Shown here piece by piece: positions 7,924-25,115 of a stretch of DNA of 48,859 bases. Below the pieces are notes generated by a model. That model saw only the letters and a program-made list of their open reading frames with translations, ran no database searches and had not been told where the DNA came from. Positions within the stretch are counted from its first letter, which is position 1; each line of letters starts with the position of its first letter. Made by a program: the position numbers and the translations under genes. The stretch is from Gemmatimonadaceae bacterium (GTDB taxonomy: Bacteria > Gemmatimonadota > Gemmatimonadetes > Gemmatimonadales > Gemmatimonadaceae): contig JAUQWM010000059.1 in assembly GCA_030835125.1 (NCBI GenBank), forward strand, positions 1-48,859. Reading direction: 5' to 3'.

Positions 7924-9189
7924 ATGGACGAGACTGTCATTCGACTCGCGGTGGCCGCCCTCTGCGGCCTGGCGGTGGGCCTGGAACGGGAGTGGTCAGG
8001 GCACTCGTCCGGCCCGCTCGCCCGGTTTGCGGGCCTCCGGACGTTCCTGCTCATTGGCGCGCTCGGCGGAGTCGCCGGCTGGCTGGTCTCGATGGGAATC
8101 GAGACGGCGGGTGCGGTCCTGCTCGCCGGTGGCTCGGCCCTGATCATCGCTGCCTACATCCAGGGCGCCCGACCGGGGGGCGCCACCATCGAGGGAACCA
8201 CCGAAGTCGCCGCAATGGTCGTGCTGGCGCTCGGCACGCTCGCCGGGCTCGGATTCGTGGAGATCACGAGCGGCGCCACGGCGGTCATGGTCCTGGTCCT
8301 GAACGAGAAGGAGCGGATGCGCTCACTCGTTGTCCGCATCGGGGACCGCGAGCTGCGCGCGGCACTGCAGTTCGCGGTGCTCGCGACGGTGGTGCTGCCC
8401 CTGCTTCCGGCGGGCACGTATGGACCCCTGGGTGGGATCCAGCCGCGGAGCCTGTGGATCGTGGTCCTGCTGTTCTCCGGCCTGAACTTCGCCGGGTACC
8501 TGGCGCGGCGTGCCGTGGGACCCGAGCGCGGGTACGGGGTGACCGGGCTCCTGGGCGGGCTGATCTCCTCGACCGCCGTCACATTCCAGTTCTCGCGCCT
8601 CAGTCGCGAGGACCAGTCGCTCGCGGCCGGACTGGCCACCGGCGTGCTGGGGGCAAGCGTGGTCCTCTTCCCCCGCATCGTGCTGGTCAGTGCGGTGCTG
8701 AACGTGGAGGTCGCGCTGGCGCTGCTGCCGATCCTGGTGCCGCCGTTCCTCGCCGGCGTCATCCTGCTGGTGCTGGCGTTCGCGCGGCGTTGGGGCGCCT
8801 CGCAGTCCGCCCGGCGCGCGGAGCCGATCCAGAGCCCGCTTCGTCTGTGGTCCGCGATCCGCATGGCGGTGGCGCTGCAGCTCGCGATGACGGTGCTGAC
8901 CGCGATCAGCCGGGCGTTCGGCGAAGGTGGCGTGCTGGCGTCGGCGGCGTTGCTGGGGCTCACCGACCTGGACGCACTGACCCTGGCCATGAACCGGATG
9001 GGCACCACCCCGGAGCTGGTCGGTCTCGCGGCGCGCGCGATCGCGATCGGCGCGATCGGGAACGGGGTGTTCAAGACGACGCTGGCGCTCGCGCTCGGCG
9101 GCCCCGGCTACCGTCGCCTGGCCGCCGCGGGCCTGCTGGCGATGGCCGGGACCGGCGCCATCGCCCTCGCCGCCTCGTGGTATGCCTAA
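7924..9189 (+). CDS. MgtC/SapB-type membrane protein with DUF4010 C-terminus
   Basis: A 421-residue inner-membrane protein with about ten hydrophobic segments. The N-terminal part (RLAVAALCGLAVGLEREW, then LRTFLLIGALGG and GARPGGATIEGTTE) is the MgtC/SapB domain; the C-terminal half (LLGGLISSTAVTFQFSRLS, LLGLTDLDALTLAM, IGAIGNGVFKT) matches the DUF4010 domain usually fused to it. MgtC proteins are linked to magnesium starvation and control of the F-type ATPase, but the MgtC-DUF4010 fusion has no established function. A CorA magnesium channel lies 16 kb away. The stop TAA overlaps the stop of the convergent stress protein inside GCCTAACG. Confidence 0.85.
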   Translation: MDETVIRLAVAALCGLAVGLEREWSGHSSGPLARFAGLRTFLLIGALGGVAGWLVSMGIETAGAVLLAGGSALIIAAYIQGARPGGATIEGTTEVAAMVVLALGTLAGLGFVEITSGATAVMVLVLNEKERMRSLVVRIGDRELRAALQFAVLATVVLPLLPAGTYGPLGGIQPRSLWIVVLLFSGLNFAGYLARRAVGPERGYGVTGLLGGLISSTAVTFQFSRLSREDQSLAAGLATGVLGASVVLFPRIVLVSAVLNVEVALALLPILVPPFLAGVILLVLAFARRWGASQSARRAEPIQSPLRLWSAIRMAVALQLAMTVLTAISRAFGEGGVLASAALLGLTDLDALTLAMNRMGTTPELVGLAARAIAIGAIGNGVFKTTLALALGGPGYRRLAAAGLLAMAGTGAIALAASWYA

Positions 9190-10475: not shown

Positions 10476-10605
10476 TGTATTGGTGCCTCCGGTTGCCAGC
10501 TGCGGCGGAACCACGCGGTCCCGTAATGCTCAATCTCCCGACCAGGGAGCGCTGCCACCGTAGTCCCCTCGCTGAATGCTTGTGAGGAACCGGCACGTGT
10601 AGCCG

Positions 10606-12528
10606 TCAGGGGATTCCCGATGGGATCGCCAGGGGACCGCGACGTCGCGCCGGCAGGCTCGCGCGTATGGCGTTCACGATGACGGCGACATCGATGACTT
10701 CCTGCAGCAAAGCCCCCGCCACCGGGGTGATGTACCCGCCAGCCGCGAAAAGCATCGCGATCGCACTCAGCGTCAACCCGACCCAGATGCTCTGTCGCGC
10801 GATCCGCATCGTGCGCTGGCCGATTCTCAGGGCCTCGATCACCCGACTGAGGTCGTCGTTGAGGATCACGATGTCCGCGGCCTCGGCGGTGATTCCGCCG
10901 CCATGTCCCGCCAGCGCGATGCCGACGTCAGCGCGCGACAGCGCGGGTGCGTCATTCGTCCCGTCGCCCACCATGAGGACGGATTGACCGGCCTCCGCCA
11001 TGGCGGCCACCCGCGCGACTTTCTCCCCGGGAAGCAGCAACGCCTCGAACTCGGTGATGCCGACCTGTGCCGCGACGGCGGCGGTGTTGGCGACGTCATC
11101 GCCGGAGAGCAGGACGGTCCGCGTGATGCCAAGCGTCGTGAGGCCGGCGACGAGTTCGCGTGCGCCGGGCCGGACCTCATCCGCGTAGTCGATGCGCCCG
11201 GCGATGGCGTCGTCGATGATCACCCACGCGCGCAGCGCCGTGCCGTCCGGCTCGTCGAGCGGCGTGCCGGGTTCCACACGATCCAGCGCAAAGCGCCGGG
11301 AACCCACGGCGATGCGGCGCCCCTCGACCACGCCCGCGACGCCCTGGCCGGGCGTCTCGTGCACGTCAACCGCCACCGGCAGGAGGGGCGTCGCGACGAG
11401 CGCGGCGTCGACCACCGGCCTCGCGAGCTGGTGTCCCGATCGCATCTCGACGGCCGCGGCGAGCCGCAGGACTTCGCGCTCCGGAAGATCCGACAGGGTG
11501 GCGACGTGCGACACTTGCGGCTGCCCGACCGTCAACGTGCCGGTCTTGTCGAAGACAGCAACGCGGAGCCCGTCGAGGCGCTCCAGCGCACCGCCCGTCC
11601 GGATGATCACCTGGCGCGCCGCCGCGCGGTTGATGCCACCGATGATGGCGATCGGCGTGGCCAGGATGAGCGGGCACGGTGTGGCGACCACCAGCACCGC
11701 GAGCACGCGCACCGGGTCGCCCGACAGGAACCACGCCACCAGGCACCACGCGATGGTGATGGGGGTGAACCAGACCGCATACCGATCGGCCAACCGCTGG
11801 AGCGGCGCCTTGCTCGCCTCCGCCGACCGCACCAGGTCCACGATGCGCGCGTACTGGCTGTCCCTGGCGACGGCCGTCGCGGCCAGGACGAATGCGCCCT
11901 CGAGGTTCAGCGTGCCGCTGAGGAGCCGCTTCCCCGGGACGGCCTCGATGGCCATCGGCTCGCCGGTGATGCGCGACGTGTCCACGTGCGACCTCCCTTC
12001 GTCGACGACGCCATCGCACGGGACCATCTCGCCGGGGCGCACGAGCAACCGGTCGCCGACGACGATGACCTCCACCGGGATGTCCGCAATCACGTCACCC
12101 GCCACCCGGTGGGCGATGCGCGGCGCATCGGCCTCCAGGGCACGGACCGCGCGAGACGCGCGTCCCTCGGCGTAGCGCTCGAGGGCCTCGCCACCGCTCT
12201 GCATCAGGACCACGATCAGCCCGGCGAGGGGTTCCCGCAGCGCCACCGCGGTGAGGATCGCGAGCGTGGCGACGACGTCCGTGGCCAGGTGCCCGCGGGC
12301 GATGCCGTGCAGCGTGCGCCAGGCCAGCGGCAGCCCCGTGACGAGGAGTCCGAGCATCCACGCGCGGACCGCCCACGGTTCACTGCCGAACTGGTAGCGG
12401 AGGACGGCGCCGCTGATGACGAAGGTGAGGGCGACCGCCGGCACCGCCGTCGCCCGCCACACGCCGGCGGCTCGCGCCGCCGGCGCCTCCGGCATGCCGG
12501 GTCGGGCGGGATCGCCCATGGGCGCCAT
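10606..12528 (-). CDS. P1B-type metal-transporting P-type ATPase with TPCP motif
   Basis: A 640-residue heavy-metal pump of the inner membrane. It shows the actuator motif TGEPMAIEA, the membrane metal site VVATPCPLILATPIA, the phosphorylation site FDKTGTLTVG, the nucleotide-domain HQLARPV (the HP-locus equivalent) and the hinge MVGDGTNDAPAL. There is no N-terminal metal-binding domain. The membrane motif is TPC rather than the CPC typical of copper and zinc/cadmium pumps, so the metal is uncertain; iron, nickel, manganese or cobalt are all possible. Start at 12528 leaves a 14-base gap from the 16-haem cytochrome stop, so the gene is probably in the same transcript. A link between metal (for example iron) export or supply and cytochrome assembly is only inference. 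Confidence 0.87.
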   Translation of the reverse strand: MAPMGDPARPGMPEAPAARAAGVWRATAVPAVALTFVISGAVLRYQFGSEPWAVRAWMLGLLVTGLPLAWRTLHGIARGHLATDVVATLAILTAVALREPLAGLIVVLMQSGGEALERYAEGRASRAVRALEADAPRIAHRVAGDVIADIPVEVIVVGDRLLVRPGEMVPCDGVVDEGRSHVDTSRITGEPMAIEAVPGKRLLSGTLNLEGAFVLAATAVARDSQYARIVDLVRSAEASKAPLQRLADRYAVWFTPITIAWCLVAWFLSGDPVRVLAVLVVATPCPLILATPIAIIGGINRAAARQVIIRTGGALERLDGLRVAVFDKTGTLTVGQPQVSHVATLSDLPEREVLRLAAAVEMRSGHQLARPVVDAALVATPLLPVAVDVHETPGQGVAGVVEGRRIAVGSRRFALDRVEPGTPLDEPDGTALRAWVIIDDAIAGRIDYADEVRPGARELVAGLTTLGITRTVLLSGDDVANTAAVAAQVGITEFEALLLPGEKVARVAAMAEAGQSVLMVGDGTNDAPALSRADVGIALAGHGGGITAEAADIVILNDDLSRVIEALRIGQRTMRIARQSIWVGLTLSAIAMLFAAGGYITPVAGALLQEVIDVAVIVNAIRASLPARRRGPLAIPSGIP

Positions 12529-12542
12529 GCGTCCGGAGGTGC

Positions 12543-14033
12543 CTAACGGGCTCCGGGCACCTTGAGGTGGCACAGCAGGCACTGCGTGACGTTGCGGGTC
12601 GCCAGCCGCTCGGCGCGGAAGCCCGGCCCATGGGGGTTCACTCCCCACCCCGTCGTGGAGTGACAGGCGAGGCAGTCCCGCTGTGCATGGCAGGTCGCGC
12701 AACTCTGCAGTCCCTGCCGCGCCGCGCGCCCGTGCTGCAGCAACCACTGTGGCTGCGCGTTGTGGAATGCGACGTCGAGGCGGCCCTTCGAGGCCAGCCC
12801 GGACTCACGGTGGCAGCTGCGGCAGAACAATTCGGCATTGTGGCACGACGCGCACTCCGTCTCGCGTCCATAGGAATCCGCGGCGTGTCGCTGGACGAAG
12901 TTCGCGCGATGGAAGCGGCGCTGGTTGTCGCCCGCGTGGCAGTCGGAGCAGAAGCGCTGGGCGTGGCAACCGGCGCAGGAGACCGGCGACGCGGCGGCGC
13001 GCGGCCCATGGGTCCTGGAAAACCCGGCCTCGTGGACGCGCACGATGCGCGGTGCCGTGGGCGTGGTGTCCGACTGCGCCGGCTGCGCCGGCATCGCCAG
13101 CGCGATCGGGCGGAACCGGGCCGGCTGCAGCTTGAGCTGCACGCCCGGGGCACCGCCTCGCTCCGCCATCGGCAGCCGCGCAATCACGTCGGACGCGCCG
13201 GCGCCGACGTGGCAGCTGGTGCAACTCGGGCGCGCGTGGCACGCGGCACACCGCGCGACATTCGACCGCGCCGCGGGGCCGTGGAGGACGGCGAAATCCG
13301 CGTCGGCGTGATCGGCGGGAATGGGATACACGGCGGGTCGGCCGGCCACGAGGCTCGCCACGCGGTCGTCCCGGCCAAGGGCGGCGATGATCGGCTGCGT
13401 GGACGCATTCACGTGGCAGCGGGCGCAGGACTCCCGCGCGTGGCAGACGGCGCAACTCGCGGCGGCGACGGGGGTGACCGGGCTGTGCGCGGCGGCGAAG
13501 TCGGAGCGCTCGTGCGAGGCCGGCTTCGGCAGCCCCGCGACCTGGTCCCGCGTCAGGCCGGTGGCGGCGGTCAGGGCGACGTGGCAGGTCGCACACCGGT
13601 TGTCGTTCCCGAGGTGCGCCGAGGCGCGATGCGTGTGGCAGCCCAGGCACCCTTCAGGCGCCGCGGGATGGATGTCCATGCGCCGCGTGGCGGTGCCGCC
13701 GTGGCAGGTCGTGCAGGCGCGGCCGGTCGAGTCCACCTGGCGCGCGTGCGCCGGGTGCGAGTATCGCAGCAGTCCGGCGACAGGCGCCGGCCGTTGCCAG
13801 GAGACGGTCCGGGCATCGGTTCCGTTGTGGCACTCGCGACAGGAGGCCTCGGACGGCATGGAAGACGCCGCGTCACCGGTGGCGATGCCGGCGTGGCAGC
13901 TCTCGCACAGCGGGAAGAGGCGCTCATGACGCTGGTGCGGGAACGGCGCCTCGCCGCCGCGACGCTGCGCGGCAACGGGTGCCGCGATCGCGATCGATGC
14001 GCCGACCGCCAACCACCAGGCGCGCGTCGTCAT
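12543..14033 (-). CDS. Secreted 16-haem c-type cytochrome
   Basis: A 496-residue exported protein with a signal peptide (MTTRAWWLAVGASIAIAAPVAAQ) and 16 CXXCH motifs, at about residues 43, 65, 107, 129, 147, 194, 203, 262, 271, 353, 362, 394, 404, 445, 454 and 485. Ten of them form five close pairs with only four or five residues between motifs (for example CAVCHARESCARCH), a repeated module. The protein is otherwise rich in His, providing distal ligands. The ATG at 14033 overlaps the barrel gene's stop as ATGA. A multihaem protein coupled to an outer-membrane barrel is the hallmark of porin-cytochrome conduits, so I infer that this one sits in the barrel or docks on one face of it. The stop codon lies in GCCTAACG. 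I could not place it in a named cytochrome family. Confidence 0.9.
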   Translation of the reverse strand: MTTRAWWLAVGASIAIAAPVAAQRRGGEAPFPHQRHERLFPLCESCHAGIATGDAASSMPSEASCRECHNGTDARTVSWQRPAPVAGLLRYSHPAHARQVDSTGRACTTCHGGTATRRMDIHPAAPEGCLGCHTHRASAHLGNDNRCATCHVALTAATGLTRDQVAGLPKPASHERSDFAAAHSPVTPVAAASCAVCHARESCARCHVNASTQPIIAALGRDDRVASLVAGRPAVYPIPADHADADFAVLHGPAARSNVARCAACHARPSCTSCHVGAGASDVIARLPMAERGGAPGVQLKLQPARFRPIALAMPAQPAQSDTTPTAPRIVRVHEAGFSRTHGPRAAASPVSCAGCHAQRFCSDCHAGDNQRRFHRANFVQRHAADSYGRETECASCHNAELFCRSCHRESGLASKGRLDVAFHNAQPQWLLQHGRAARQGLQSCATCHAQRDCLACHSTTGWGVNPHGPGFRAERLATRNVTQCLLCHLKVPGAR

Positions 14034-15520
14034 GGCACCCGTCCCGCGCCCGTCGCTGCCCCGGGATCCCGTCCGACGGTCCATTCCAGCCTCAGGGAGA
14101 AGCGGCGCTGGCTCCAGTCGGGCGACGGGGCGCCCTGCGTCAGCTTGTGCCGGTAGAACGCCCCGTCCGCCACCAGCCGGACGTCCGTGCCGAGGCGCGT
14201 GCCGCCCTCGACGCGCAGCCCGGTGACCCGTCCGGTGCCGACGCGGAACTCGTAGATGTGCTGCAGGCCGCTGGCCGCGATGCCGAGGTACCGCGACTCG
14301 TCAGGCATCCAGCGCGCCCCCGCGACCATGTCGTTCAGCGAGGCGCCGAAGCCGATGTCGATGTCGTAGTCGGCGTAGACGAGCCACTGGTCGCGCGGGA
14401 TCCACTCGGCGCCCGCGCCGGCGCGCCAGCCGCCCGACTCGAGCGGCATCGACTCGAGGCCCTCGTCGGTGTCGTCGTATTCACGCCGGGCGCCGCGGGC
14501 GTCGACGCTCCACCGCGCGTCGGCCGAGCGCCAGCCCACCGTGGCCCGCAGCTCGTCGAACGCGACCGGGGAGAAGGCGCCCCAGATGGTCCAGGCATCG
14601 AAGAACGGCCGGTGGCGCCTGGCCTCGAGCGACATGGACGTGGAACGCGCCACCGGCCGCGACACGCGCAGGAGGGCGTCGTTGAACTGCCGCTCGCCAA
14701 GGTCCCAGGCCAGGGACCCGTCGATCGAGGCGCCCATCAGGCGCACCGAGGCGTCGGCGGCGACCCGCTCGGAGTACAGCGCGCCCCGGTCGGCGCGGAT
14801 GACGCGCTGCCAGGTGGCGGACGCCACGCCCCGGGTGCCTAACGGTGCCCCGGCCGTGAGGCCGAGCAGCCAGCCATCCTCGTCAGGCGGCAGGTCGTCG
14901 ATGGCGCCGAGTTCGGCGCCGGTCACCGGGTCGTTGAGCCCGACCACGAGGCTCCGGCCCCCGAAGGCCTCGAGGCGCGCCCGGCCCCGGCGCACCAGCA
15001 CCGAGGCGCCGTCGTAGTTGTGGACCCCCAGGCCGCCGGTGGCCCACTGCCGGCCGAGGCGGGTGCGGACACCGCCGCGATCCACCTCCAGCCAGGCCTC
15101 GATGGCGTCGAACGCATCGTCGGAGCGCGGCCACGAGGGCGAGTCACCCAGGGCACCGCGCGCGCGCACGTGCGCCTGCAGGCTGATCCCCTGGCCGAAG
15201 CCCCACGCCACCGCGCGAAGGTCCTGGACCACCGGCGTCGCCATCGCACGGTCACCCGAGCTGCGGAACCGGCAATACGGCTCGTCGCCCACGCACCGCA
15301 CCAGGCGACCGTCCGCCATCGTCCGGAAGGCGCCGGTCCCCGTGGTCTGGCCCACGGGTACGCTATCCTCCACGAGGGGTCGCAGGTCCACCCCCTGCAT
15401 CGAACTCGTCCCGGTGATCCGCACGCCCTGCGCGCCCACGACCGGCGACCACGCCAGCCCGAGCGCGGCGGCCGTCGCCAGGTGCCGCAACCCGGAGAAC
15501 CCGTGAAGGCGCGCGATCAT
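14030..15520 (-). CDS. Outer-membrane beta-barrel protein of the multihaem cluster
   Basis: A 496-residue exported protein: signal peptide MIARLHGFSGLRHLATAAALGLAWSPVVGAQ, then a long series of alternating, amphipathic strands with aromatic ends (for example ISLQAHVRARG, RTRLGRQWA, ARLEAFGGRS, DGSLAWDLG, MSLEARRHRP, LRATVGWRSA, WRAGAGAEWI, QWLVYADYDIDIG, RFSLRLEWTV). There are no haem motifs. Roughly 18-22 strands can be guessed, similar in scale to MtrB/PioB barrels, but no sequence relationship to those families is claimed. One cysteine pair (RCVGDEPYC) lies near the N-terminus. It is translationally coupled at both ends (ATGA overlaps) to the 20-haem and 16-haem cytochromes, which supports a role as the pore of an electron conduit. 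The alternative is a specific porin of another function. Confidence 0.75.
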   Translation of the reverse strand: MIARLHGFSGLRHLATAAALGLAWSPVVGAQGVRITGTSSMQGVDLRPLVEDSVPVGQTTGTGAFRTMADGRLVRCVGDEPYCRFRSSGDRAMATPVVQDLRAVAWGFGQGISLQAHVRARGALGDSPSWPRSDDAFDAIEAWLEVDRGGVRTRLGRQWATGGLGVHNYDGASVLVRRGRARLEAFGGRSLVVGLNDPVTGAELGAIDDLPPDEDGWLLGLTAGAPLGTRGVASATWQRVIRADRGALYSERVAADASVRLMGASIDGSLAWDLGERQFNDALLRVSRPVARSTSMSLEARRHRPFFDAWTIWGAFSPVAFDELRATVGWRSADARWSVDARGARREYDDTDEGLESMPLESGGWRAGAGAEWIPRDQWLVYADYDIDIGFGASLNDMVAGARWMPDESRYLGIAASGLQHIYEFRVGTGRVTGLRVEGGTRLGTDVRLVADGAFYRHKLTQGAPSPDWSQRRFSLRLEWTVGRDPGAATGAGRVP

Positions 15521-17592
15521 GGCCTGGTCCCACCCGGGCCGGTCCACGCGCTGAGATGGCAGGGAGCGCACTCGCGACCCGGCATGTGCTCCTTCTGCTC
15601 GGCATGACAGGCCACGCATGTGGCCCGCACCGGGCTCACGGCCGTTCCGCGTTCCCGCTCGTGGCAGCCGGAGGTCGCGCAGCCCGTCGCGTGCACCTCA
15701 CGCTTGTGCGTCGTGCGCGCGGGAGGATGGCAGCTCGAGCAGTTGCGATCCACCGTGTGATGATCGGCGTGACAGGAAGCGCAGGTGCGCTCCACCGTCC
15801 TGACCCGCGCGTCGGCATGGCACCCGCTGCACTCCAGCTTCGCGTGCTGCCCGTGCTGGAAGCCGAGGGGACGCGTCCGGGGCTGTGGCCACACCGCGAG
15901 GGCGAACGGCACCTGGACCGGGCGGTCGAGACTGATCTCGGCCGCGGTGTGACACCGGACGCAGTCGCGCCCGACGGTGGTGCTGGCGTGATGGCACCCC
16001 TGGCAATCGCGGGCGAGGCGCTTCAGGTCACCGCGGCCGGCAGGCGTGCTGTGGCACGTGGTGCAGGTCACGGACTCGTGGCGGGCGTGCTCGAACCTGA
16101 TCGTGTCACGGCCCTGCGCCGCCGGCGCCGGCGCGTGAGCGGTCAGTGCGGCCGCGGCACCCTCGGGGCCTCGCCATCGATCCCTCCCGGCCGGCGGCGG
16201 TGACTGCACCGCCCCTGCCTGACGAGAAGCGCTCCAAGCGGTGGGACGGAGGAGTGCCCGTGGGCTCCCGGCGGACGGCGCGGGCTGGACGATGTCCAGC
16301 CCACGTCCGGCGGCGGGGGCCGAGGGCGAGTGGCCTGTGGGCCTCATGCCCGGGACCATGGCGTCGACAGGCGACCGTTGCCCCTGTGTCGCAGGTGCGG
16401 CGCCCTCGGGCGGCCGCGTGCGCACCGCCGGATCACGGATCCCGGTGTGGCAACTGCGGCAATCCACCGCGTTCGCCGTCCAGGTGTGGGCACCGTGGCA
16501 CGCGCCACACGTCTCCAGCCGGTGACGGCCAAGGCGGCGGTGCGCGGCCGTCAGCGTATCGGACCGGACGTGGCACCCGGAGGTCCCGCAGGACTGGAAG
16601 GCGCCCGATGGCGTCGTCTGCGAATGCGGATTGTGGCAGGTCCCGCACTTGCCGCCATGGGGTTCCTGCTCCGGCGCGAACGCGCCGAGCCGTTCCCGCA
16701 TTTCGTGGCATCCGAGGCACTGCTGGTCGCCCGGCACGAGGGCGGCACGCGAGGAGTCGATCGGGTTGCCTTCGACCGCCTTGACGGTGAACTCGTGGCA
16801 AACCGTACAGTGGAGGTCGGTCTGCTGCGCCATCTTGCCCAGTTCGACCTTGATGTCGTCATGACAGCCAGACTGCGCGCAGGTCTCGCTCACCGGCTTG
16901 AACCGGTGCACTTCCTGCCCGTGGCAGGTGGTGCACTCGATGCGCGACATGACCGGCGAGCGCGGGTTGAGGTGCACCTGGTGTCCCGCCGTGGCCGAGA
17001 CGCGCTGCCAGGTGCTGTCCGGGTCGCGCTGGATGTGGCACTCGGAGCAGATGGCGTTAGGCACCGACCGGTGCTCGGGGATCTTGTCGGGCCGTTCGGT
17101 GACCTGCACGTACAGCTCGAGCATGCTGGCGAAGATCGACTGCCGGTGGCAGTCGTGGCACTGCAACTTGGCGTGCTCGCTGGTCCCGAACCGCTCGAAC
17201 GGCACGTCCATGATGTGGCAGCCGGCGCAGAACTCGTTGTCGTGCATCATGTAGTTCCACGACCACGAGCCGGCGAAGCCGATGCCGCCCAGGACCACGA
17301 GGGTGATCGCGGCGAACCCCATCTTCCAGGCGCGCGACCGGGCCGAGAACCACGACCCGATCGCGACGCGGTGGCGCCACGCCAGGAACACCACCACCAG
17401 GCCCACCGCGGCGCCGAGGAACACCCCGCCGATCTGGACCCACTGCGGCACGGTGTTGAAGAGGAACCGGATGACACCGAGGGCCGGGCTGGGGAGCGGC
17501 GACTCGACCGCGATGGAATCCGTGCGGAGCGAATCGGCGACCTGGGTGCCCTGTTGGGCGAATGCGGCGACGGCGCTCAGCGTCAGGATCAT
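15517..17592 (-). CDS. NapC/NrfH-like membrane cytochrome expanded to 20 haem motifs
   Basis: A 691-residue protein. It has two membrane helices (about 47-72 and 91-111) followed directly by a NapC/NrfH-type haem module, with CAGCH at 122 and the short-helix context HIMDVPFERF and SEHAKLQCHDCH. In all, 11 haem motifs lie in residues 122-382. A Pro/Ala-rich haem-free linker covers about 383-505, then nine more motifs occupy 510-679. Seventeen motifs are CXXCH and three are CX4CH (CAQSGCH, CGTSGCH, CATSGCH). NapC/NrfH proteins oxidise membrane quinol and pass electrons to periplasmic partners; here the partner domain seems fused on. The ATG at 17592 gives an uncharged leader MILTLSAVAAFAQQ; the frame upstream would encode a basic n-region (DRVRDRSH) but has no ATG, GTG or TTG. 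Confidence 0.87.
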   Translation of the reverse strand: MILTLSAVAAFAQQGTQVADSLRTDSIAVESPLPSPALGVIRFLFNTVPQWVQIGGVFLGAAVGLVVVFLAWRHRVAIGSWFSARSRAWKMGFAAITLVVLGGIGFAGSWSWNYMMHDNEFCAGCHIMDVPFERFGTSEHAKLQCHDCHRQSIFASMLELYVQVTERPDKIPEHRSVPNAICSECHIQRDPDSTWQRVSATAGHQVHLNPRSPVMSRIECTTCHGQEVHRFKPVSETCAQSGCHDDIKVELGKMAQQTDLHCTVCHEFTVKAVEGNPIDSSRAALVPGDQQCLGCHEMRERLGAFAPEQEPHGGKCGTCHNPHSQTTPSGAFQSCGTSGCHVRSDTLTAAHRRLGRHRLETCGACHGAHTWTANAVDCRSCHTGIRDPAVRTRPPEGAAPATQGQRSPVDAMVPGMRPTGHSPSAPAAGRGLDIVQPAPSAGSPRALLRPTAWSASRQAGAVQSPPPAGRDRWRGPEGAAAALTAHAPAPAAQGRDTIRFEHARHESVTCTTCHSTPAGRGDLKRLARDCQGCHHASTTVGRDCVRCHTAAEISLDRPVQVPFALAVWPQPRTRPLGFQHGQHAKLECSGCHADARVRTVERTCASCHADHHTVDRNCSSCHPPARTTHKREVHATGCATSGCHERERGTAVSPVRATCVACHAEQKEHMPGRECAPCHLSAWTGPGGTRP

Positions 17593-17644
17593 GACTGTGG
17601 CTGCTGTATGAGACCTGTCTCGAACCCGGTCCTGGAAGCGATGC

Positions 17645-17678
17645 GGAGCGGATGGGCCTTGGTCGACCCATCCGCTCC
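17645..17678. terminator. Perfect 12-bp hairpin between two cytochrome genes
   Basis: GGAGCGGATGGG (17645-17656) and CCCATCCGCTCC (17667-17678) form a perfect 12-bp stem with a 10-base loop. It begins 25 bases after the stop of the 9-haem lipoprotein gene and ends 52 bases before the start of the 20-haem gene. No T-run follows on the minus strand, so partial termination, mRNA end protection or differential expression of the two parts of the cluster are all possible. Confidence 0.6.
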
Positions 17679-17703
17679 CTTGCCTACACCTGCGGGTACA
17701 TCG

Positions 17704-19179
17704 TCAGTGGGTGGTCGGCGTCGTGATCCGGACCCGCTGGACGTCCCCGGGCGTCGGCGCCAGGCCCGGGGGAAGCGCGATCCCGTATGCCTGGTTGAGC
17801 GCCACGCCACTGTACCGGAGGAGAGTCTTGATCAGGAACGGGTTGTGTGCGGCCGCCCCGACTCCCTTTGCCAACGACGAGTTGAACTTGGCGCCGCGGC
17901 CCGGCGTGACCTTGCCGGCGCCGAACTGGTTGGACGGCACCTGCGCGATCATGCCGTCGAGGAGTGCCGCGAGCCCCAGCACGTCGTTGTTGCCGCTGAT
18001 CCACGCCGACCTGGCCGCGATCTCGCTGTTGCCGTGGCAACCACCCGTTGCGCAGCCCTTGAAGGAGCGGGCCGCAACCGCGCATCCCTGGTCCTCTGTC
18101 GGGGCGCCATTGGCGTCCACGCAGGGGATGGGAAGGAAGCGATGGCCGACCACCGTGACCTGGAACGCACCCGTCACCGCGTCGTTCACGTTGTAGTGCT
18201 GGACGTGGCAGCTGGCGCACAGCCGCGGATTGGCCGCCGTGCCGTGAGTCGACTGCGTCTCGAGGAACTCGACCCCCGGGGGCCACCAGCCGGCATCGCC
18301 GAAGACCAGCGGACCGTGCGGCGCGTGCGGTTCATCCCGCGAGCCGGCCCAGTCGGGCGTCGACCGACGATTGTGGCACTTGGCGCAGAGGTTGGTCTCG
18401 GTATCCTGGGCATCCACCGCGTAGCGGGTCTGCTTGGGGAAGGCCGACCCGTGCGGATCGTGGCAGACGATGCAGGTGACGCCCTCGGAGCCGGCCAGGT
18501 TCGTGGCGGCGTTCTTCTCGACGTAGTTCGTGTTCACGCCCCACGCGGCCAGCACGTACTGCCCGACGTGGCACCCGCGGCACGACGCATTCGGCTCACC
18601 GGTGGTCGCGAACGTGTGGTCGTTAGGCCGCCCGTGGCGCGACGCGCGCCATTCCTCGACGAACGGATGGTGCGTCCCGGAGTGGCACTCCGCGCAGCCG
18701 TTGGTGACCGCGGAGCCGGTGTCGGCGTGGATCGAGGCCAGCATCTGCCCGCGGGCGGGCGCCGTCACGTGATCGAGGCCGGGGCCGTGGCAGCTTTCAC
18801 ACTGCACGTCGTGATATCGCGTGTCGCTGGTGGCCTTGTAGCCGACGTTGGCGTCGACGACCACATTGCCCTCCTCGCCAACCGTGTGGCATCCCTCACA
18901 GCTGGCCCCGGCGTGCCCGCTCGCCTGCAGCGTTGCCCAGGCATCGGCATGAGCCGTTTGCTGCCACTTCCCCTGCTGGGTGACGTGGCAATTGCCGCAC
19001 ACGGTCTTGTTCGTGGTCGTGTCGCTGTACCCCATGAAGTTCGCGGCCGCCGCGGGCGGCGCCACGAACCCTGGTCCGTCGCGATAGACGATCTTCTCGT
19101 CCACGCATCCGCTGGCCGCGATCAGCATCGCCGCCAGAGAGGAGCCTCGCCACACCCGGCCCAGCACGTTGCGCCACAT
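17704..19179 (-). CDS. Multihaem c-type cytochrome lipoprotein (cytochrome c554-like, 9 motifs)
   Basis: A 491-residue lipoprotein: N-terminus MWRNVLGRVWRGSSLAAMLIAASGC with lipobox AASGC (C25). Eight CXXCH motifs lie at about 61, 94, 127, 162, 200, 236, 265 and 321, and a ninth has four intervening residues (CATGGCH, about 376). The first part (CGNCHVTQQGKWQQTAHADA, then SGHAGASCEGCH) resembles cytochrome c554/multihaem family repeats that carry an HxxW-like acceptor region. The last 110 residues have no haem. A strong Shine-Dalgarno (GGAGGAAG) precedes the ATG. As a lipoprotein it may sit on the outer membrane, possibly at the cell surface, making it the candidate terminal donor or acceptor of the conduit; surface exposure is inference. 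It is the first gene of the cluster, downstream of ccmH after a 211-base gap. Confidence 0.87.
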   Translation of the reverse strand: MWRNVLGRVWRGSSLAAMLIAASGCVDEKIVYRDGPGFVAPPAAAANFMGYSDTTTNKTVCGNCHVTQQGKWQQTAHADAWATLQASGHAGASCEGCHTVGEEGNVVVDANVGYKATSDTRYHDVQCESCHGPGLDHVTAPARGQMLASIHADTGSAVTNGCAECHSGTHHPFVEEWRASRHGRPNDHTFATTGEPNASCRGCHVGQYVLAAWGVNTNYVEKNAATNLAGSEGVTCIVCHDPHGSAFPKQTRYAVDAQDTETNLCAKCHNRRSTPDWAGSRDEPHAPHGPLVFGDAGWWPPGVEFLETQSTHGTAANPRLCASCHVQHYNVNDAVTGAFQVTVVGHRFLPIPCVDANGAPTEDQGCAVAARSFKGCATGGCHGNSEIAARSAWISGNNDVLGLAALLDGMIAQVPSNQFGAGKVTPGRGAKFNSSLAKGVGAAAHNPFLIKTLLRYSGVALNQAYGIALPPGLAPTPGDVQRVRITTPTTH

Positions 19180-19390: not shown

Positions 19391-19813
19391 TTAGGCGCCC
19401 TGGGCGGGGCCCGTCGTGGAACGCCGCACGGTGCGGACGACGACGACGCCACCCACCACGATTGCCAGAATCGGCACCAGGTACACGACGAGGTTGAAGC
19501 CTTCGGCCTTTGGTGCCAACAGGATCCACTCACCGTACTTGTCCACGAAGTACGCGCGGACCTCGTCAGGCGTCCGGCCGGCCCGGAGCTGGTCCCGGAT
19601 GACGGAGCGCATCTCCTGGGCGAGTTCCGACGGCGAGTCCTGGATGGAATTCCCCTGGCAGACCGGGCAACGCAGCTCCGAGGCGAGCATGGTCGTCGTC
19701 GCCTCGAGGGCCGAGTCGGACCTCGCCGGCATGCTCGGGATCGCCGAACCCACCTGCGCTTCCGCCCCCGTGGCGAACAGGAGCACCAGGGCGAGCGCCC
19801 AGGAATGACTCAC
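19391..19813 (-). CDS. ccmH: Cytochrome c maturation protein CcmH (N-terminal, CcmL-type)
   Basis: A 140-residue periplasmic thiol protein, the short CcmH/CycL form without the TPR domain. It has a signal peptide ending ATGAEAQ, the redox motif LRCPVCQ (C49 and C52), the family helices with MRSVIRDQL and PDEVRAYFVDKYGEWILLAP, and one C-terminal membrane anchor (about 106-126). It holds apocytochrome CXXCH thiols reduced for haem attachment. It starts with GTG, overlapping the ccmG stop as GTGA, and ends at a TAG inside GGTTAGGC. A TPR-containing CcmI is not seen in this window. Confidence 0.92.
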   Translation of the reverse strand: MSHSWALALVLLFATGAEAQVGSAIPSMPARSDSALEATTTMLASELRCPVCQGNSIQDSPSELAQEMRSVIRDQLRAGRTPDEVRAYFVDKYGEWILLAPKAEGFNLVVYLVPILAIVVGGVVVVRTVRRSTTGPAQGA

Positions 19814-20379
19814 GGTGCCCCGGCGCCGTCGCGGAGCAGTGAATCCAGCTTCTGCGACAACTGGCGCTGCGAAATCGGGCCGATGTGCTTGTATGCCACC
19901 CGGCCATCACGCGAGACGAAGAACGTCTCCGGTACGCCGTAGAGACCGTAGTCGATCGCGGTCCTCGTGCGGGGATCGAGCAGGGAGGGATACGTCTGGC
20001 CACCCATCTCCTGGATCCAGCGCAACCCGAACGATTCCTGGTCGTTGTACAGGAGCCCGTAAAAGCGCACGCCCTTGTCGAAGTACTCGGTGGCCGTGGC
20101 CGACAGGTCGCGGTGCTCGTCTCGGCACTGCAGGCACCACGACGCCCAGAAGTTCAGGACGACGACCTGTCCGGCGTGATCGGCGAGGCGGACGGTGTCA
20201 CCAACGTTGAGCGCCGTCGCCCCCTCGCCGGGCGCGAACACGGACAGCGCGAAGGAGGGCGCCGGCTTGCCGGGCAACGGTGAGACGATCGCCTTCGGGT
20301 CGCGCGTGAGGCCAAAGGCGAGGATGCCGATCACCGGAATCGCCATCGCGACGGCGGTGGTGGCCCGTTTCCAGTTCAT
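19810..20379 (-). CDS. ccmG: Thioredoxin-like thiol reductase CcmG/DsbE
   Basis: A 189-residue membrane-anchored thioredoxin-fold protein facing the periplasm. The N-terminal helix is AVAMAIPVIGILAFGL; the active site is VVVLNFWASWCLQCRDE (WCLQC, C82 and C85), and the cis-proline region is YGVPETFFVSRDGRV. It reduces CcmH or apocytochrome disulfides. The usual CcmG active site is WCxxC with CEP/CVP; CLQC is a slight variant. The start at 20379 overlaps the ccmF stop as ATGA, which rules out the longer frame that would run back into ccmF. Confidence 0.92.
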   Translation of the reverse strand: MNWKRATTAVAMAIPVIGILAFGLTRDPKAIVSPLPGKPAPSFALSVFAPGEGATALNVGDTVRLADHAGQVVVLNFWASWCLQCRDEHRDLSATATEYFDKGVRFYGLLYNDQESFGLRWIQEMGGQTYPSLLDPRTRTAIDYGLYGVPETFFVSRDGRVAYKHIGPISQRQLSQKLDSLLRDGAGAP

Positions 20380-22403
20380 CGGGCCGGCTCCTCCAGCCCG
20401 ACCGGGGTCGGGCGCACGGGGGGCACGGCGCGCACGCGCGCGGCGGCCAGCGCCGGCTCCCGCTTTCCGCCCCCGAGCGACACCAGCGCGCCCAGGCACA
20501 CGATCATGCCGCCGATCCAGATCCACGGCACGAGCGGCTCGACGATCACGCGCAATGTCGCGGTGGAACCGTCCTGCTCGAACGCCTGCAGGTTGATGTA
20601 CAGGTCGCCGGCGGCGCGACTACGCACCGCGGGCGTCGGCACGGGCTGGTCGGAGGTCGGGTAGAAGTTCATCCGCGGTTCCATGCGCCCGACCTCGCGA
20701 CCGCCCTTGAGGACGGTCACCCAGGCGGCGAGCACGCCGCGCTGCGGCTCCTCGCGGTACGTGACCTCGTCGAACCGCACCGTGAACTTGCCGACCTCGA
20801 TGACCTCGCCCTTGCGCAGCGTGGCTTCCCGCTCGGTCCGGAACATCGCCGAGGCGCCGATGCCTAACGTCACGGTGAGGACGCCGAGGTGGGCGAGGTA
20901 CCCGCCGTAACGCCGGCGGTTGGCGCCCACCAGGCGCGCCAGCGCGACCGGTGGCGACTCCCCGTGGGCGCGGCGGCGCGCCAGGGCGCCGTCGATGAAC
21001 TCGCGGACGTTGGCGGCCAGCGCGAACCCGCCGAACATGAAGGCCGCCAGCCCGTACGGGGAGCGCACGCCCGCCAGCAGGCTGAGGACGAGCGCGACCA
21101 CGCCGGCGATCGCCGGCGGCAGCAACTGCCGGCGCACCACGTCGCGGGACGCAACGCGCCACGGCAGCGCCGGGCCCACCCCCATCAGGAAGAGCAGCAT
21201 GGCGCAGATGGGCAGCGTCATCCGGTTGAAGAACGGCTCGCCCACCGAGACCTTCACGCCGCGGATGGCCTCGGCCACCAGCGGGAAGAGCGTCCCCACC
21301 AGGACCGTCACCGTGAACGCGCTGAGGAACAGGTTGTTCAGCAGGAACACCGTCTCCCGCGACACCGCGGTGTCCAGCGACCCGGTCGGCCGCAGCCGTT
21401 CCGAGTTGCCTGCCACCAGCGCGAACGACGCGATCAGGACGATGGCGATGAACGCGAGGAAGTAGCGTCCGATGGGTCCCTCGGAGAACGCGTGCACCGA
21501 CGACAGCACGCCGCTCCGGGTGAGGAACGTCCCGAGGATCGTCAGCGCGAACGTGGAGACGATCAGGTTCAGGTTCCACAGCTTCAGCAGGCCGCGTCGT
21601 TCCTGGACCATCACCGAGTGCAGGAACGCGGTCGCCGTCAGCCACGGGATGAACGAGGCGTTTTCCACCGGGTCCCACGCCCAGTAGCCGCCCCAGCCCA
21701 GCACCTCGTAGGACCACCACATCCCGGCGATGATCGCCGCCGCCAGGAACATCCAGGCCGTCAGCGTCCAGCGGCGCGTGATGCGGATCCAGCCATCGTT
21801 GTCGATGTCCCCCGACAGCACGGCGCCGATCGCAAAGGCGAACGGCACCGACATCCCGACGTAGCCCAGGTACAGCAGCGGCGGATGCACGGCCATCAGC
21901 GGGTGGTTCTGCAGCAGCGGGTTGGGACCCGGGCCGTCCGGGGGCACCGGGAAGACCGCGGAGAACGGGTTGGCCGGCCCGACGAGCAGGATGAGGAAGA
22001 AGATGCTGATCAGCATCAGCACACCGCCGGCGTACGGCACCAGCAGCCCCTCGCGGGCGCGGTTCTGGTACGTCACCAGCGCCGCCAGCGACGTGAGCAC
22101 GAAGATCCAGAAGAGGATCGACCCCTCGAGCGCGCCCCACAACGAGATCACCGTGTAGAACAGCGGCGTGGCACGGCTGCCGACCATGGCCACGTACTTC
22201 ACGCTGAAGTCGTGCGCGACCAGCGCGTACACCATGGCCAGCGTCGCGGCGGTGGCGAGGGCCCACACCGCATAGACCGCCACCTGGCCACTCCGCAGCA
22301 GGCCGGCGTGGCGCCGCCGGGCACCGAGCATCAGCGCCAGCGCGCCGTAGATGGCCACGCCTAACGCCAGCAGCAGCGACCCGGCCCCGATCAGTCGCGT
22401 CAC
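20376..22403 (-). CDS. ccmF: Cytochrome c haem lyase subunit CcmF
   Basis: A 675-residue polytopic membrane protein of the haem-handling superfamily, the core of the haem lyase that attaches haem to CXXCH. The tryptophan-rich haem-binding signature is WGGYWAWDPVENASFIPW (about 237-254), flanked by conserved histidines (NHPLMAVHPPLLYLGY upstream, and SSVHAFSEGPIG downstream). About 14-15 membrane segments are visible plus a periplasmic domain near the C-terminus (EVTYREEPQRG). Start is GTG in a GTGA overlap with ccmE. Two copies of GCCTAACG fall inside the gene (20862, 22359), each encoding Leu-Gly with a rare TTA codon. Confidence 0.95.
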   Translation of the reverse strand: MTRLIGAGSLLLALGVAIYGALALMLGARRRHAGLLRSGQVAVYAVWALATAATLAMVYALVAHDFSVKYVAMVGSRATPLFYTVISLWGALEGSILFWIFVLTSLAALVTYQNRAREGLLVPYAGGVLMLISIFFLILLVGPANPFSAVFPVPPDGPGPNPLLQNHPLMAVHPPLLYLGYVGMSVPFAFAIGAVLSGDIDNDGWIRITRRWTLTAWMFLAAAIIAGMWWSYEVLGWGGYWAWDPVENASFIPWLTATAFLHSVMVQERRGLLKLWNLNLIVSTFALTILGTFLTRSGVLSSVHAFSEGPIGRYFLAFIAIVLIASFALVAGNSERLRPTGSLDTAVSRETVFLLNNLFLSAFTVTVLVGTLFPLVAEAIRGVKVSVGEPFFNRMTLPICAMLLFLMGVGPALPWRVASRDVVRRQLLPPAIAGVVALVLSLLAGVRSPYGLAAFMFGGFALAANVREFIDGALARRRAHGESPPVALARLVGANRRRYGGYLAHLGVLTVTLGIGASAMFRTEREATLRKGEVIEVGKFTVRFDEVTYREEPQRGVLAAWVTVLKGGREVGRMEPRMNFYPTSDQPVPTPAVRSRAAGDLYINLQAFEQDGSTATLRVIVEPLVPWIWIGGMIVCLGALVSLGGGKREPALAAARVRAVPPVRPTPVGLEEPAR

Positions 22404-22861
22404 GAGCCCGCTCCCTTCGTGAGGGACTTGTACATCTCCTGCGGCCGGTCGCCGTGCTCCGGCTTGCGGTACTCGTTCGAGTGCTTGACCATCAGGCCGG
22501 TGGACTGGAACACGCCATCCCGGTGGTACCGGCCCTCCACCACCACGCCCATGCCGTCCCGGAACATCTGCGGCGGCGCGCCGGTGCTATGCACCGTCAC
22601 CGCCTCCCCGCCCGTGTCGGTCACGACGAACCGGAGGTCCAGCTTCTCCGGATCCCACTTCACCGACCCCGGCTGCACCTGCCCGCCCAGCCGCACCGGC
22701 ACGTCGTACGCCGCCGTGCCCCGCTCCAGCAGCTCCTGGGGCGTGAGGAAGAACACGACATTGGAGTCGATGCCGCCGTACAGCAGGAACCCGAATGCCC
22801 CCAGCAGGATCACCGCGGCAACCGCCAGCGCCGACCGCCGCCTCCCTCGTGCCGTGCTCAT
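22400..22861 (-). CDS. ccmE: Haem chaperone CcmE
   Basis: A 153-residue membrane-anchored periplasmic haem chaperone. One N-terminal helix (ALAVAAVILLGAFGFLLYGG) is followed by the OB-fold with VRLGGQVQPGSVKWD, VVVEGRYHRDGVFQ and the haem-linking segment LMVKHSNEYRKPE. The covalent haem-binding histidine is H127 with Y131 as the nearby axial tyrosine (the HxxxY form). It passes haem from CcmABCD to CcmF. The start overlaps the ccmD stop as ATGA. Confidence 0.95.
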   Translation of the reverse strand: MSTARGRRRSALAVAAVILLGAFGFLLYGGIDSNVVFFLTPQELLERGTAAYDVPVRLGGQVQPGSVKWDPEKLDLRFVVTDTGGEAVTVHSTGAPPQMFRDGMGVVVEGRYHRDGVFQSTGLMVKHSNEYRKPEHGDRPQEMYKSLTKGAGS

Positions 22862-23007
22862 ATGTGCCTCCGTGCGTCGACCCGCGACGCCTGTGCCAGC
22901 CGGTGTTTCGCGTCACGCGATACCCGATGCAGCCGCACCGCGTACCCGAGGACGCCAACCCACATCACGACATACGCCGCGACGACAAACCCGTTGCCCT
23001 CAAGCAT
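22858..23007 (-). CDS. ccmD: Small haem-exporter accessory protein CcmD
   Basis: A 49-residue single-pass membrane protein read directly from the gap between ccmC and ccmE. It begins MLEGNGFVVAAYVVMWVG, has one hydrophobic helix (about 7-25, with the conserved tyrosine AAYVVMW), then a positively charged tail (RLHRVSRDAKHRLAQASR). Size, topology and position match CcmD, which holds CcmE to the CcmABC complex. It starts eight bases inside ccmC and its TGA overlaps the ccmE ATG. Confidence 0.85.
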   Translation of the reverse strand: MLEGNGFVVAAYVVMWVGVLGYAVRLHRVSRDAKHRLAQASRVDARRHI

Positions 23008-23734
23008 GATCCCTGCCCTCCAGCGCCGCGCGCTCCTCGAGCTGCTCGGCCAGCCGCTCCACGCGGGCCGCCCGGTACCGCTTCATGATGAAGTATACGA
23101 GGACGAGGAGTACCGCGATGCCGTTGGCGCGCAGCCCGACGACATATTCCGGATCGACGGTGCTCGGGCTCGACTGCATCTGGTGGAGCGTCCGCCACCA
23201 CTTCACCGACATGTAGACGATCGGCACGTTGAGGGCCCCCAGCAGGCCCACCGCCGCGCTCCATTGGGCACGCCGGTCGGCGTCCTCCACGAATGACCGC
23301 AGGGCGAGGTACCCGACGAAAATCAGCAGGAGGACGGCCGTGGACGTCAGCCGCGGATCCCACGTCCACCATACCCCCCAGGTGGGGCGTCCCCAGATGG
23401 ATCCCAGCGCCAGCGTCAGCGCGGTGAATACCGTCCCCACCTCGGCCGCCGATGCGGCCAGCAGGTCGTGACGTTCCTGGCCCTTCCACAGGTACAGGAG
23501 GCTGCAGATGGCGACCACGAAGAACGCGATGAACGAGTTCCACGCCGCCGGCACGTGCACGTACATGATCTTCTGGAGGTGACCCATGTCGCGATCGGGC
23601 GGGCTGGTCAGCACCCCGAGCAACTGCGCACCCACCAGGGCGAGCAAGGCAACCAGGCCCAGCCATTCGATGGGCCGGGTGACGCCCACCGCTGCGGGCG
23701 GGCTTTCGGTTTCCAGCGGGACAGCGTGACTCAT
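23000..23734 (-). CDS. ccmC: Haem transfer protein CcmC
   Basis: A 244-residue membrane protein with six helices. The tryptophan-rich haem motif is WGRPTWGVWWTWDPRLTS (about 118-135), with flanking histidines in QKIMYVHVPAAWN and MQSSPS-preceding WWRTLHQ. It loads haem onto CcmE. The start ATG at 23734 gives the family length and lies two bases after the ccmB stop; a longer open frame upstream overlaps ccmB and lacks homology-like features. Confidence 0.94.
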   Translation of the reverse strand: MSHAVPLETESPPAAVGVTRPIEWLGLVALLALVGAQLLGVLTSPPDRDMGHLQKIMYVHVPAAWNSFIAFFVVAICSLLYLWKGQERHDLLAASAAEVGTVFTALTLALGSIWGRPTWGVWWTWDPRLTSTAVLLLIFVGYLALRSFVEDADRRAQWSAAVGLLGALNVPIVYMSVKWWRTLHQMQSSPSTVDPEYVVGLRANGIAVLLVLVYFIMKRYRAARVERLAEQLEERAALEGRDHA

Positions 23735-23736
23735 GC

Positions 23737-24423
23737 TCAGACCTCGATGACGTAATCGAACGCGAGGAACGACGCTACGACGAATATCACGTCGAAAGCG
23801 GCCAGGAGGCGCACCCACGCGCCGGCATCGCGCATCGGGTCGCCCGCCAACAGGGACGACGAGGCTTCCGCCGATGCCAGGAGGACCGGAATCAGCATCG
23901 GGAACAACAGGAGGGGGAGCAGCACCTCCCTGGCGCGGCTCCGGCTCGCCATGGAGGCATAGAACGTCCCCAGGGACACAAACCCGATGGTGCCGAGGAG
24001 CATGACCCCGATCGCCGGCAGCCATCCCGCGGTCGACTTCACCTGGAACAGGATGATCGCGACCGGCACCACGATCGCCTCGACCAGCAGCACGAACAGC
24101 AGGTTGGCGGCGAGTTTCCCGGCGAAGATCGTCCATCGTGGCGCCGGATACAGGAGCAACTGTTCCAGCGCGCCGCCGTCGAGCTCGAGCTGGTACGAGC
24201 GGTTGAAGGCCAGCACGCCGGAGAACAGGATCGCCAGCCAGAGCGCGCCCGCCGCGGCGTCACGCAGCGCCTCGGCATCCGGACCGAGCGCGAAGCCGAA
24301 CAGCAGGAGGATGAGTACCCCGAGGAAGGCGACCGAGTTGAAGCCCGCCTTCGAGCGGCGCTCGGTCGTGAGGTCCTTCCAGACGATCGCGCGCACGCGG
24401 CGCAGGTCCTGGGCAAACGCCAT
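23737..24423 (-). CDS. ccmB: ABC permease CcmB
   Basis: A 228-residue permease with six membrane helices. Family motifs are the N-terminal amphipathic helix VWKDLTTERRSK, FNRSYQLELDGGALEQLLL and the long stretch around LLPLLLFPMLIPVLLASAEA. With CcmA it drives release of haem-loaded CcmE from CcmC. The start overlaps the ccmA stop by one base (TGATG). Confidence 0.94.
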   Translation of the reverse strand: MAFAQDLRRVRAIVWKDLTTERRSKAGFNSVAFLGVLILLLFGFALGPDAEALRDAAAGALWLAILFSGVLAFNRSYQLELDGGALEQLLLYPAPRWTIFAGKLAANLLFVLLVEAIVVPVAIILFQVKSTAGWLPAIGVMLLGTIGFVSLGTFYASMASRSRAREVLLPLLLFPMLIPVLLASAEASSSLLAGDPMRDAGAWVRLLAAFDVIFVVASFLAFDYVIEV

Positions 24424-25115
24424 CAGGCTGGTCCCGCCGTGGCCACCGCCATCATCCCGTCGACCGCGTTGGTGCCGATGACGGCGCCGCGCCCGAGTTC
24501 GACGATGCGATCGAGGACCCGCTCGCCCTGACGCTTGTCGTGCAGGACCACGAGCGCCGCGCCGCCACCACGTCGCGCATCCTGGATGACTTCATTCACC
24601 AGTTCGATGCCCTGCGGGTCGAAGTTGTTGTACGGCTCATCGAGGAGCAGCAGCCCGGGGGACCCGAGCGTCATGCGCGCCAAGGCGAGCCGGCGCTGCA
24701 TGCCGGCGGAAAAGCCGCGGACGCGTTCGTTCGCCTCCCGCGCCAGGCCGACCCGTTCGAGCGCCGCAGGGATCTGCGCCTCCGGGACGCCGAGCATGCG
24801 CGCCGCGAAGATCAGATTCTCGGTGGCGGTGAGGTCGTCGTAGAGACCCGGAGAATGCGCCAGAAAGCCGATGTGCGACCTCACTTCGACCGCTTCACGG
24901 ACGAGATGCTTCCCGAAGACCCATCCCTCGCCGGCGGACGGCCGCAGGGCTGTGGAAACCACGCGGAGCAGCGTGCTCTTGCCGCTCCCGTTATGTCCCA
25001 TGATACCAACGACTTCTCCCGGCTCGACCTCGAGCGAGACGCCGCGCAATGCCCATCGCATCCCGAATCGTCGCGCGAGTCCACTGAGCTTGAGGGTCTG
25101 GCCGGGTGAGTTCAC
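24423..25115 (-). CDS. ccmA: ABC ATPase CcmA
   Basis: A 230-residue ATP-binding subunit with Walker A GHNGSGKST (40-48), Q-loop region FLAHSPGLYDDLT, signature FSAGMQRRLALAR, Walker B LLLLDEPYNNFD and the switch histidine in VVLHDK. It begins at GTG and is the first gene of the ccmABCDEFGH operon; every junction downstream overlaps or is within two bases until ccmH. Its promoter should lie in the 161-base gap before the divergent corA; TATACG around 25162-25167 is a possible -10 but no matching -35 was found. Confidence 0.94.
   Translation of the reverse strand: MNSPGQTLKLSGLARRFGMRWALRGVSLEVEPGEVVGIMGHNGSGKSTLLRVVSTALRPSAGEGWVFGKHLVREAVEVRSHIGFLAHSPGLYDDLTATENLIFAARMLGVPEAQIPAALERVGLAREANERVRGFSAGMQRRLALARMTLGSPGLLLLDEPYNNFDPQGIELVNEVIQDARRGGGAALVVLHDKRQGERVLDRIVELGRGAVIGTNAVDGMMAVATAGPA

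Follow-up and report, generated by a model that had tools for sequence, protein, structure and literature searches.

Can a member of the Gemmatimonadota, a phylum common in soils and sediments whose anaerobic respiration is poorly understood, move electrons from its quinone pool to the outside of the cell? The question is raised by four adjacent minus-strand genes at positions 12543-19179 of contig JAUQWM010000059.1 from a Gemmatimonadaceae bacterium (GenBank assembly GCA_030835125.1), the 48,859 nucleotides of which (forward strand, hereafter the window) were analyzed here. These genes encode a nine-haem cytochrome lipoprotein (9H), a NapC/NrfH-type 20-haem protein (20H), an outer-membrane beta-barrel, and a secreted 16-haem cytochrome (16H), with 9 + 20 + 0 + 16 = 45 haem motifs by direct count. 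An initial annotation, made from the nucleotide sequence, had read them as a complete quinol-to-outside electron path. On rechecking, the open reading frames (ORFs) and motif counts all agreed with its four genes and 45 motifs on three proteins, and the ATGA overlaps that it had described as linking 20H, barrel, and 16H are present at 15520-15517 (20H stop, barrel start) and 14033-14030 (barrel stop, 16H start). The ORF finder placed the start of 16H at 14084; its true start is likely the ATG at 14033, inside the overlap. We estimate a probability of roughly three in four that the cluster encodes a porin-cytochrome type conduit linking the quinol pool with the cell surface. The proposed path gains support from a predicted plug-less barrel, a recurring gene order, an NrfH signature in 20H, and the resemblance of 9H to the surface reductase OcwA.

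A barrel search found the barrel in 27 of 60 relatives. Across 20 regions around it, the order 9H-20H-barrel-16H was found in most and haem counts were kept, with barrel identity falling to ~27%. A pattern-based contig scan recovered 72 loci, all from metagenome-assembled genomes (MAGs). 16H directly followed the barrel in 69 of the 71 non-truncated relatives, and every full-length 20H directly upstream of the barrel carried exactly 20 motifs (37/37). Sixteen motifs were counted in 56 of 65 complete-looking 16H copies and nine in 42 of 45 copies of 9H; gene calls in the relatives were automatic, and haem counts near contig edges may run low. Among 298 genomes sampled phylum-wide, the barrel occurred at strong E-values in 84 (~28%, leaving out four weak matches from another class of the phylum and a single fragment from the same order), where it was accompanied by 16H in 83 (phi 0.97) and by 9H in 75 (phi 0.90). 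Chance or miscalled ORFs were ruled out, as haem counts and gene order recur in dozens of genomes; the motif counts are not due to chance because the same counts recur in relatives at roughly 35-55% identity.

Structure prediction returned the outer-membrane barrel of the initial annotation as a plug-less, non-enzyme fold. Of the outcomes that the initial annotation had named as refuting it, an enzyme fold for the barrel and a gene order seen in no other genome, neither occurred. The AlphaFold2 model, based on 69 sequences, had a predicted local distance difference test score (pLDDT) of 86.7 and a predicted template-modelling score (pTM) of 0.82, with 22 transmembrane strands counted in its DSSP list (residues 32-46, then 92-483). 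VIA-align superposed it on the post-plug barrel part of 22-strand TonB-dependent transporters (Z up to 19.2, root-mean-square deviation 4.0, 346 aligned residues); TonB-dependent receptors and substrate porins led the list, and no cytochrome porin was among the best 50 matches. Foldseek, run with the same model, ranked MtrB (6r2q_B) fifth with a template-modelling score of 0.44. An ideal barrel of 22 strands is ~40 Å wide at C-alpha. Lacking a plug, such a barrel would leave an open hole and so would need an occupant, the same logic as applies to MtrB, and we propose that the predicted barrel is the sheath of a conduit. Its sequence has no solved relative in the PDB; no Pfam family scored above cut-off for the window barrel and no porin-cytochrome family was found among its homologs. 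A short strand cluster (residues 49-88) between barrel strands 1 and 2 holds the conserved Cys76 and Cys83 (window about 15270-15295). This near-invariant pair, located in the first barrel loop and absent from the f3 family (L025-L028), possibly forms a disulfide at the extracellular face.

16H is proposed to be the wire through this barrel. The profiles closest to it were HmcA and ActA of alternative complex III, not MtrA, and against the HmcA equivalog NF045713 (NCBIfam) it scored 20.9 bits, where the cut-off is 400, placing it outside that family. The weak barrel matches in another Gemmatimonadota class (G061, G064, and G066) are barrels of 411-427 aa, followed directly by an 11/12-haem protein and then by a lipoprotein-like protein; the latter has 24 motifs in locus L109 and no fewer than 10-11 in two cases truncated by the contig. 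Barrel homology across the classes was supported by hhalign (95.8%, E 7e-9, 380 columns), as was, again by profile-profile comparison, homology between 16H and the 11/12-haem protein (99.7%, E 3e-25). The layout in this distant class links the family to the barrel, periplasmic cytochrome, and surface cytochrome order of Pcc and of the OetABI porin-cytochrome conduit (PMC10553843).

At the inner membrane, 20H is proposed, as judged from its sequence, to combine a quinol dehydrogenase and a periplasmic wire in one polypeptide. Two hydrophobic helices precede its first haem, and its N terminus matched NapC/NirT PF03264 at 24.5 bits (cut-off 24.1) and aligned with NrfH (E 1.6e-8) across FCAGCHIM...SEHAKLQCHDCH. 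The CXXCHXM motif is present as CAGCHIM, its Met128 occurring in 90% of 39 homologs; in NrfH, the Met of this motif binds the menaquinol-interacting haem (PMC8840924). Together with the 20 motifs, these features bear out the earlier description of a two-helix NapC/NrfH-like protein. The haems are split into 11 before and nine after a variable linker, and the nine-haem half resembles the c7-polymer cytochrome 3ov0. At least 11 relatives encode the halves separately, as a two-helix 11-haem protein and a secreted 9-10-haem protein; in loci L105, L052, and L066, where 20H fission gives such an 11-haem membrane protein and 9-10-haem secreted protein, the two are sometimes kilobases apart. Other relatives (L031, L074, L093, and L101) have a 19-haem protein with C-terminal helices beside the barrel, considered CbcL-like because of a cytochrome b561 Pfam match in the three tested (L031, L093, and L101; below cut-off in L031). 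At loci L019, L023, and L061, two 9H lipoproteins stand directly before the barrel, without 20H there. Gene content among the relatives thus indicates a constant barrel-16H core with an exchangeable quinone module, as expected of a conduit.

The terminal component, 9H, has a lipobox-like AASGC, whose Cys25 is invariant in 46 homologs, and a conserved Cys pair (353/366). Its profile matched 6qvm (E 4.6e-18), OcwA (6i5b, E 7.3e-15), the hydroxylamine oxidoreductase group and, weakly, MtrA (6r2q_A, E 2.1e-7). The match to OcwA, a nine-haem surface reductase (PMC6703420), comes in pieces and not end to end; by profile comparison, 9H is related to OcwA and to Carboxydothermus surface cytochromes. 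By analogy with these proteins, we propose 9H as a putative cell-surface terminal reductase. Across all three cytochromes, conserved candidate axial ligands outside the haem motifs nearly match the haems in number, as expected of low-spin wires: 19 His (in an alignment of 39 full sequences) plus the proximal Met for the 20 haems of 20H, 15 His plus Met119 for the 16 of 16H, and nine His for the nine of 9H.

Assembled in this way, the 20H NapC/NrfH module would oxidize (mena)quinol at its CXXCHXM haem, and electrons would run along the 11 + 9 haems of this inner-membrane-anchored protein into the periplasm. They would then pass to 16H, seated within or beneath the 22-strand barrel, and so cross the outer membrane, where the OcwA-like 9H on the outer surface would hand them to an extracellular acceptor such as a metal oxide, humics, a shuttle, or a partner cell. 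Family evidence speaks strongly for the quinol step and the list of parts; what we infer is how electrons move from protein to protein, where in the cell the proteins lie, the direction of flow, and the acceptor. A tentative extension, which we regard as possible but doubtful, is that 20H is a hard-wired bridge that both oxidizes quinol at the inner membrane and reaches the barrel-bound 16H, so that no diffusible periplasmic carrier would be needed; such a conduit would be a respiratory trait specific to the phylum Gemmatimonadota. Whether 20H could bridge the periplasm single-handedly depends on its extended length.

Table 1. Genes and protein modules of the putative conduit and the adjoining cytochrome c maturation genes (nucleotide positions in the window).
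Feature	Position	Strand	Details
9H, 9-haem c-type cytochrome lipoprotein	17704..19179	(-)	491 aa; 8 CXXCH + 1 CX4CH
20H, NapC/NrfH-type 20-haem protein	15517..17592	(-)	691 aa; 17 CXXCH + 3 CX4CH
20H N-terminal 11-haem NapC/NrfH-type membrane module	residues about 1-385		
20H C-terminal 9-haem c7-like module	residues about 500-680		
22-strand outer-membrane beta-barrel (predicted)	14030..15520	(-)	496 aa from ATG 15520; 0 haem motifs; stop ends 14030
16H, 16-haem secreted c-type cytochrome	12543..14033	(-)	496 aa from ATG 14033; 16 CXXCH
ccmH-ccmG-ccmF-ccmE-ccmC-ccmB-ccmA, cytochrome c maturation, accessory	19391..25115	(-)	directly upstream of cluster

Three other readings of the cluster were weighed. 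The one that survives best, which we nonetheless consider unlikely, is the same conduit run in reverse, with the quinone pool receiving electrons from outside, for example from Fe(II) or a partner cell. CymA, which is of the NapC type, and CbcL-type proteins have been implicated in both directions (PMC6295460), and a Gemmatimonas MAG from an iron spring was labeled 'mto-like', a label that, according to its authors, means only that no extracellular cytochrome was found (PMC6137239). However, 9H resembles terminal reductases (OcwA and 6qvm), and the hydrogenase genes beside the cluster in two relatives fit electron export. In these loci, L019 (G035) and L021 (G008), genes for the small and/or large subunit of a group 1-like [NiFe]-hydrogenase and its maturation adjoin the conduit, which suggests that hydrogen oxidation is coupled to it.

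Ranking behind reversal, and improbable in our judgement, is an arrangement in which 9H rather than 16H fills or caps the barrel, leaving 16H as a periplasmic or secreted partner. The weak match of the 9H profile to MtrA and the paired 9H genes directly before the barrel in L019, L023, and L061 would fit such a role for 9H, whereas 16H tracks the barrel more closely than 9H does (83/84 versus 75/84 barrel genomes) and the distant-class barrel keeps a 16H homolog without an adjoining 9H of the same family. Least probable of all is that the barrel admits some dissolved substrate as an ordinary channel, with the cytochromes forming a periplasmic reductase, for instance of a chelated metal or oxyanion, and no crossing of the outer membrane: although the barrel carries no recognizable cytochrome-porin signature, its best fold matches are general transporters, and OcwA slowly reduces nitrite and hydroxylamine (PMC6703420), an unfilled plug-less 22-strand barrel would make the outer membrane leaky, barrel and 16H stay tightly linked despite the change of quinone module, and there are enough conserved His residues to saturate the haems, so that none is obviously open for catalysis.

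Several points weigh against the export conduit itself. Searched by sequence in Pfam, NCBIfam, and the PDB, the barrel matches no named porin-cytochrome barrel. The 16H model is weak (pLDDT 72.6), and because of this its fold search gave no match; insertion of 16H in the barrel is deduced rather than taken from a model of the complex. The surface position of 9H is argued by analogy. The 72 loci are all from MAGs and include no isolate. The conduit reading nevertheless draws good support from prediction and comparative genomics: the computed results cover which genes are present, how many motifs they carry, how far their order is kept, the shape predicted for the barrel, the NrfH signature, family relations, and co-occurrence.

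We next compared the gene set with described systems. PF11854 (MtrB_PioB) had no match in the window barrel, in its 69 homologs, or in the whole genome, and the barrel's partner has 16 CXXCH motifs instead of being of the decahaem MtrA type; membership of Mtr/Pio was therefore rejected. MtrCAB, MtoAB, and PioAB share the principle of a cytochrome threaded through an outer-membrane barrel and preceded along the path by a NapC-type quinol oxidase (CymA). Unlike them, the set described here has no PF11854 domain and no MtrC, a barrel of 22 predicted strands, and 16 rather than 10 haems in the partner. The Pcc (OmbB-OmaB-OmcB) and OetABI systems of Geobacter and syntrophic sulfate reducers come closer: they likewise combine a barrel of 18-22 strands (the range reported for Pcc porins, PMC4245776) with an adjacent secreted multihaem cytochrome and a multihaem lipoprotein (PMC4245776, PMC10553843). 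Here, the 22-strand predicted barrel is encoded beside multihaem cytochromes, one of which, 16H, is the adjacent secreted or periplasmic protein. In contrast, the 16 haems of 16H exceed the 5-14 reported among Pcc periplasmic cytochromes, 9H is an OcwA-like nine-haem lipoprotein, and the gene set includes a NapC-type quinol module with 20 haems.

The individual cytochromes also depart from their closest counterparts. Like NrfH, NapC, and CymA, 20H has PF03264 over cut-off and the CXXCHXM menaquinol haem motif; unlike them, it carries 11 + 9 rather than four haems and is fused to a c7-like wire module. It shares with ImcH and CbcL the character of a multihaem inner-membrane quinone module of extracellular electron transfer (EET), and in some relatives it is replaced by the CbcL-like 19-haem protein with b561. 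However, 20H does not end in a cytochrome b as CbcL does, and with 20 motifs it has neither the CX3CH motif nor the seven-haem plan of ImcH, which is described as having N-terminal helices and seven haems including the atypical CX3CH (PMC6295460). OcwA of Thermincola, whose type is also characterized by a C-terminal three-helix bundle, has the nine haems of 9H and sequence similarity to it but comes from a Gram-positive cell wall, and the match is piecewise only. HmcA equals 16H in its sixteen haems and resembles it weakly by profile but is part of a transmembrane complex of sulfate respiration, not of a barrel. The initial annotation had matched the set to none of the named systems; this stands with respect to Mtr/Pio, while the porin-cytochrome kind was already known. 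We place the cluster as a probable new version of the porin-cytochrome conduit, distinct from Mtr/Pio; it differs from the published descriptions of Pcc/Oet, to whose barrels (OmbB, ExtB, or OetI) its own may yet be related in sequence.

Within the scope of the scans run here, the gene set appears confined to Gemmatimonadota, in uncultured members from soil and sediment. The titles of the 72 loci name Gemmatimonadota/Gemmatimonadetes, Gemmatimonadaceae, Gemmatimonadales, or Longimicrobiales, and two say only 'bacterium'; other phyla were probed only by the contig scan, which used one peptide pattern and would miss relatives outside Gemmatimonadota that lack the motif. No plasmid match was found for the barrel or 20H. 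Hints of EET in Gemmatimonadota have so far been scattered, as far as the accessible text of the reports goes: one Gemmatimonadetes genome with MtrCAB (PMC8805035), the Gemmatimonas MAG with the 'mto-like' set, the genes of which that text does not describe (PMC6137239), and a few ImcH/CbcL homologs (PMC6295460). The available part of a recent porin-cytochrome (PCC) survey names other phyla (PMC13264449), and the gene set was not described in the accessible portions of the open literature on Gemmatimonadota EET, the search of which did not extend to subscription papers and preprints.

If true, the conduit would let these microbes respire on substances outside the cell. Its occurrence in ~28% of the sampled genomes, its fixed haem counts, and its exchangeable quinone module would amount to a concrete respiratory pathway open to testing, with the barrel as a marker gene for tracking it. 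The 20H fusion would also offer a direct test of whether a quinol oxidase can be connected to the outer membrane with no soluble carrier in between.

The genes surrounding the cluster were also inspected. The ccm genes directly upstream, which would supply haem loading of the conduit cytochromes, had Pfam matches to CcmH, AhpC-TSA/Redoxin, CcmF_C, CcmE, and Cytochrom_C_asm, with the CcmH match being the sole one in the genome; ccmB and ccmA were identified from sequence and position, without a family scan. No sigma-70-like promoter was found in the cluster region, a result of low informative value because the region is GC-rich. FNR-type sites, with two mismatches allowed, numbered nine in the window, where 3.4 were expected and only 1 of 100 shuffles gave as many; none of the nine lies inside the cluster, and they were not used as evidence. 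On the other side, genes for a P-type ATPase, a universal stress protein, and an MgtC-like protein (window 7924-12747) adjoin the conduit and recur near it in locus L016 and partly in L020. The ATPase gene may begin just downstream of the 16H stop, making co-transcription possible.

Further arrangements and electron-transfer loci were observed. Locus L054 has two conduits in opposite orientation on one contig, one comprising 9H, a split 9-10-haem half, barrel, and 16H and the other 20H, barrel, and 16H. In L023, from the same genus as L019, genes for an 11-haem protein, b561, and a 14-haem protein come after 16H. The genome under study has a second multihaem/barrel locus (L118, G000:C45:172500-190500, positions 4530-13908), which encodes a membrane protein, an Fer4/FAD pyridine-nucleotide oxidoreductase, a protein with 23 CXXCH motifs, and a protein of three-haem tandem repeats with 43. 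Its barrel-like protein, start-stop overlapped and with an aromatic last residue, had matches in 5 of 60 genomes, its own included. Finally, a locus identified by gene layout alone (L119, G000:C12:183500-196651) is likely an alternative complex III operon that includes a pentahaem cytochrome, which makes it probable that the organism also respires oxygen.

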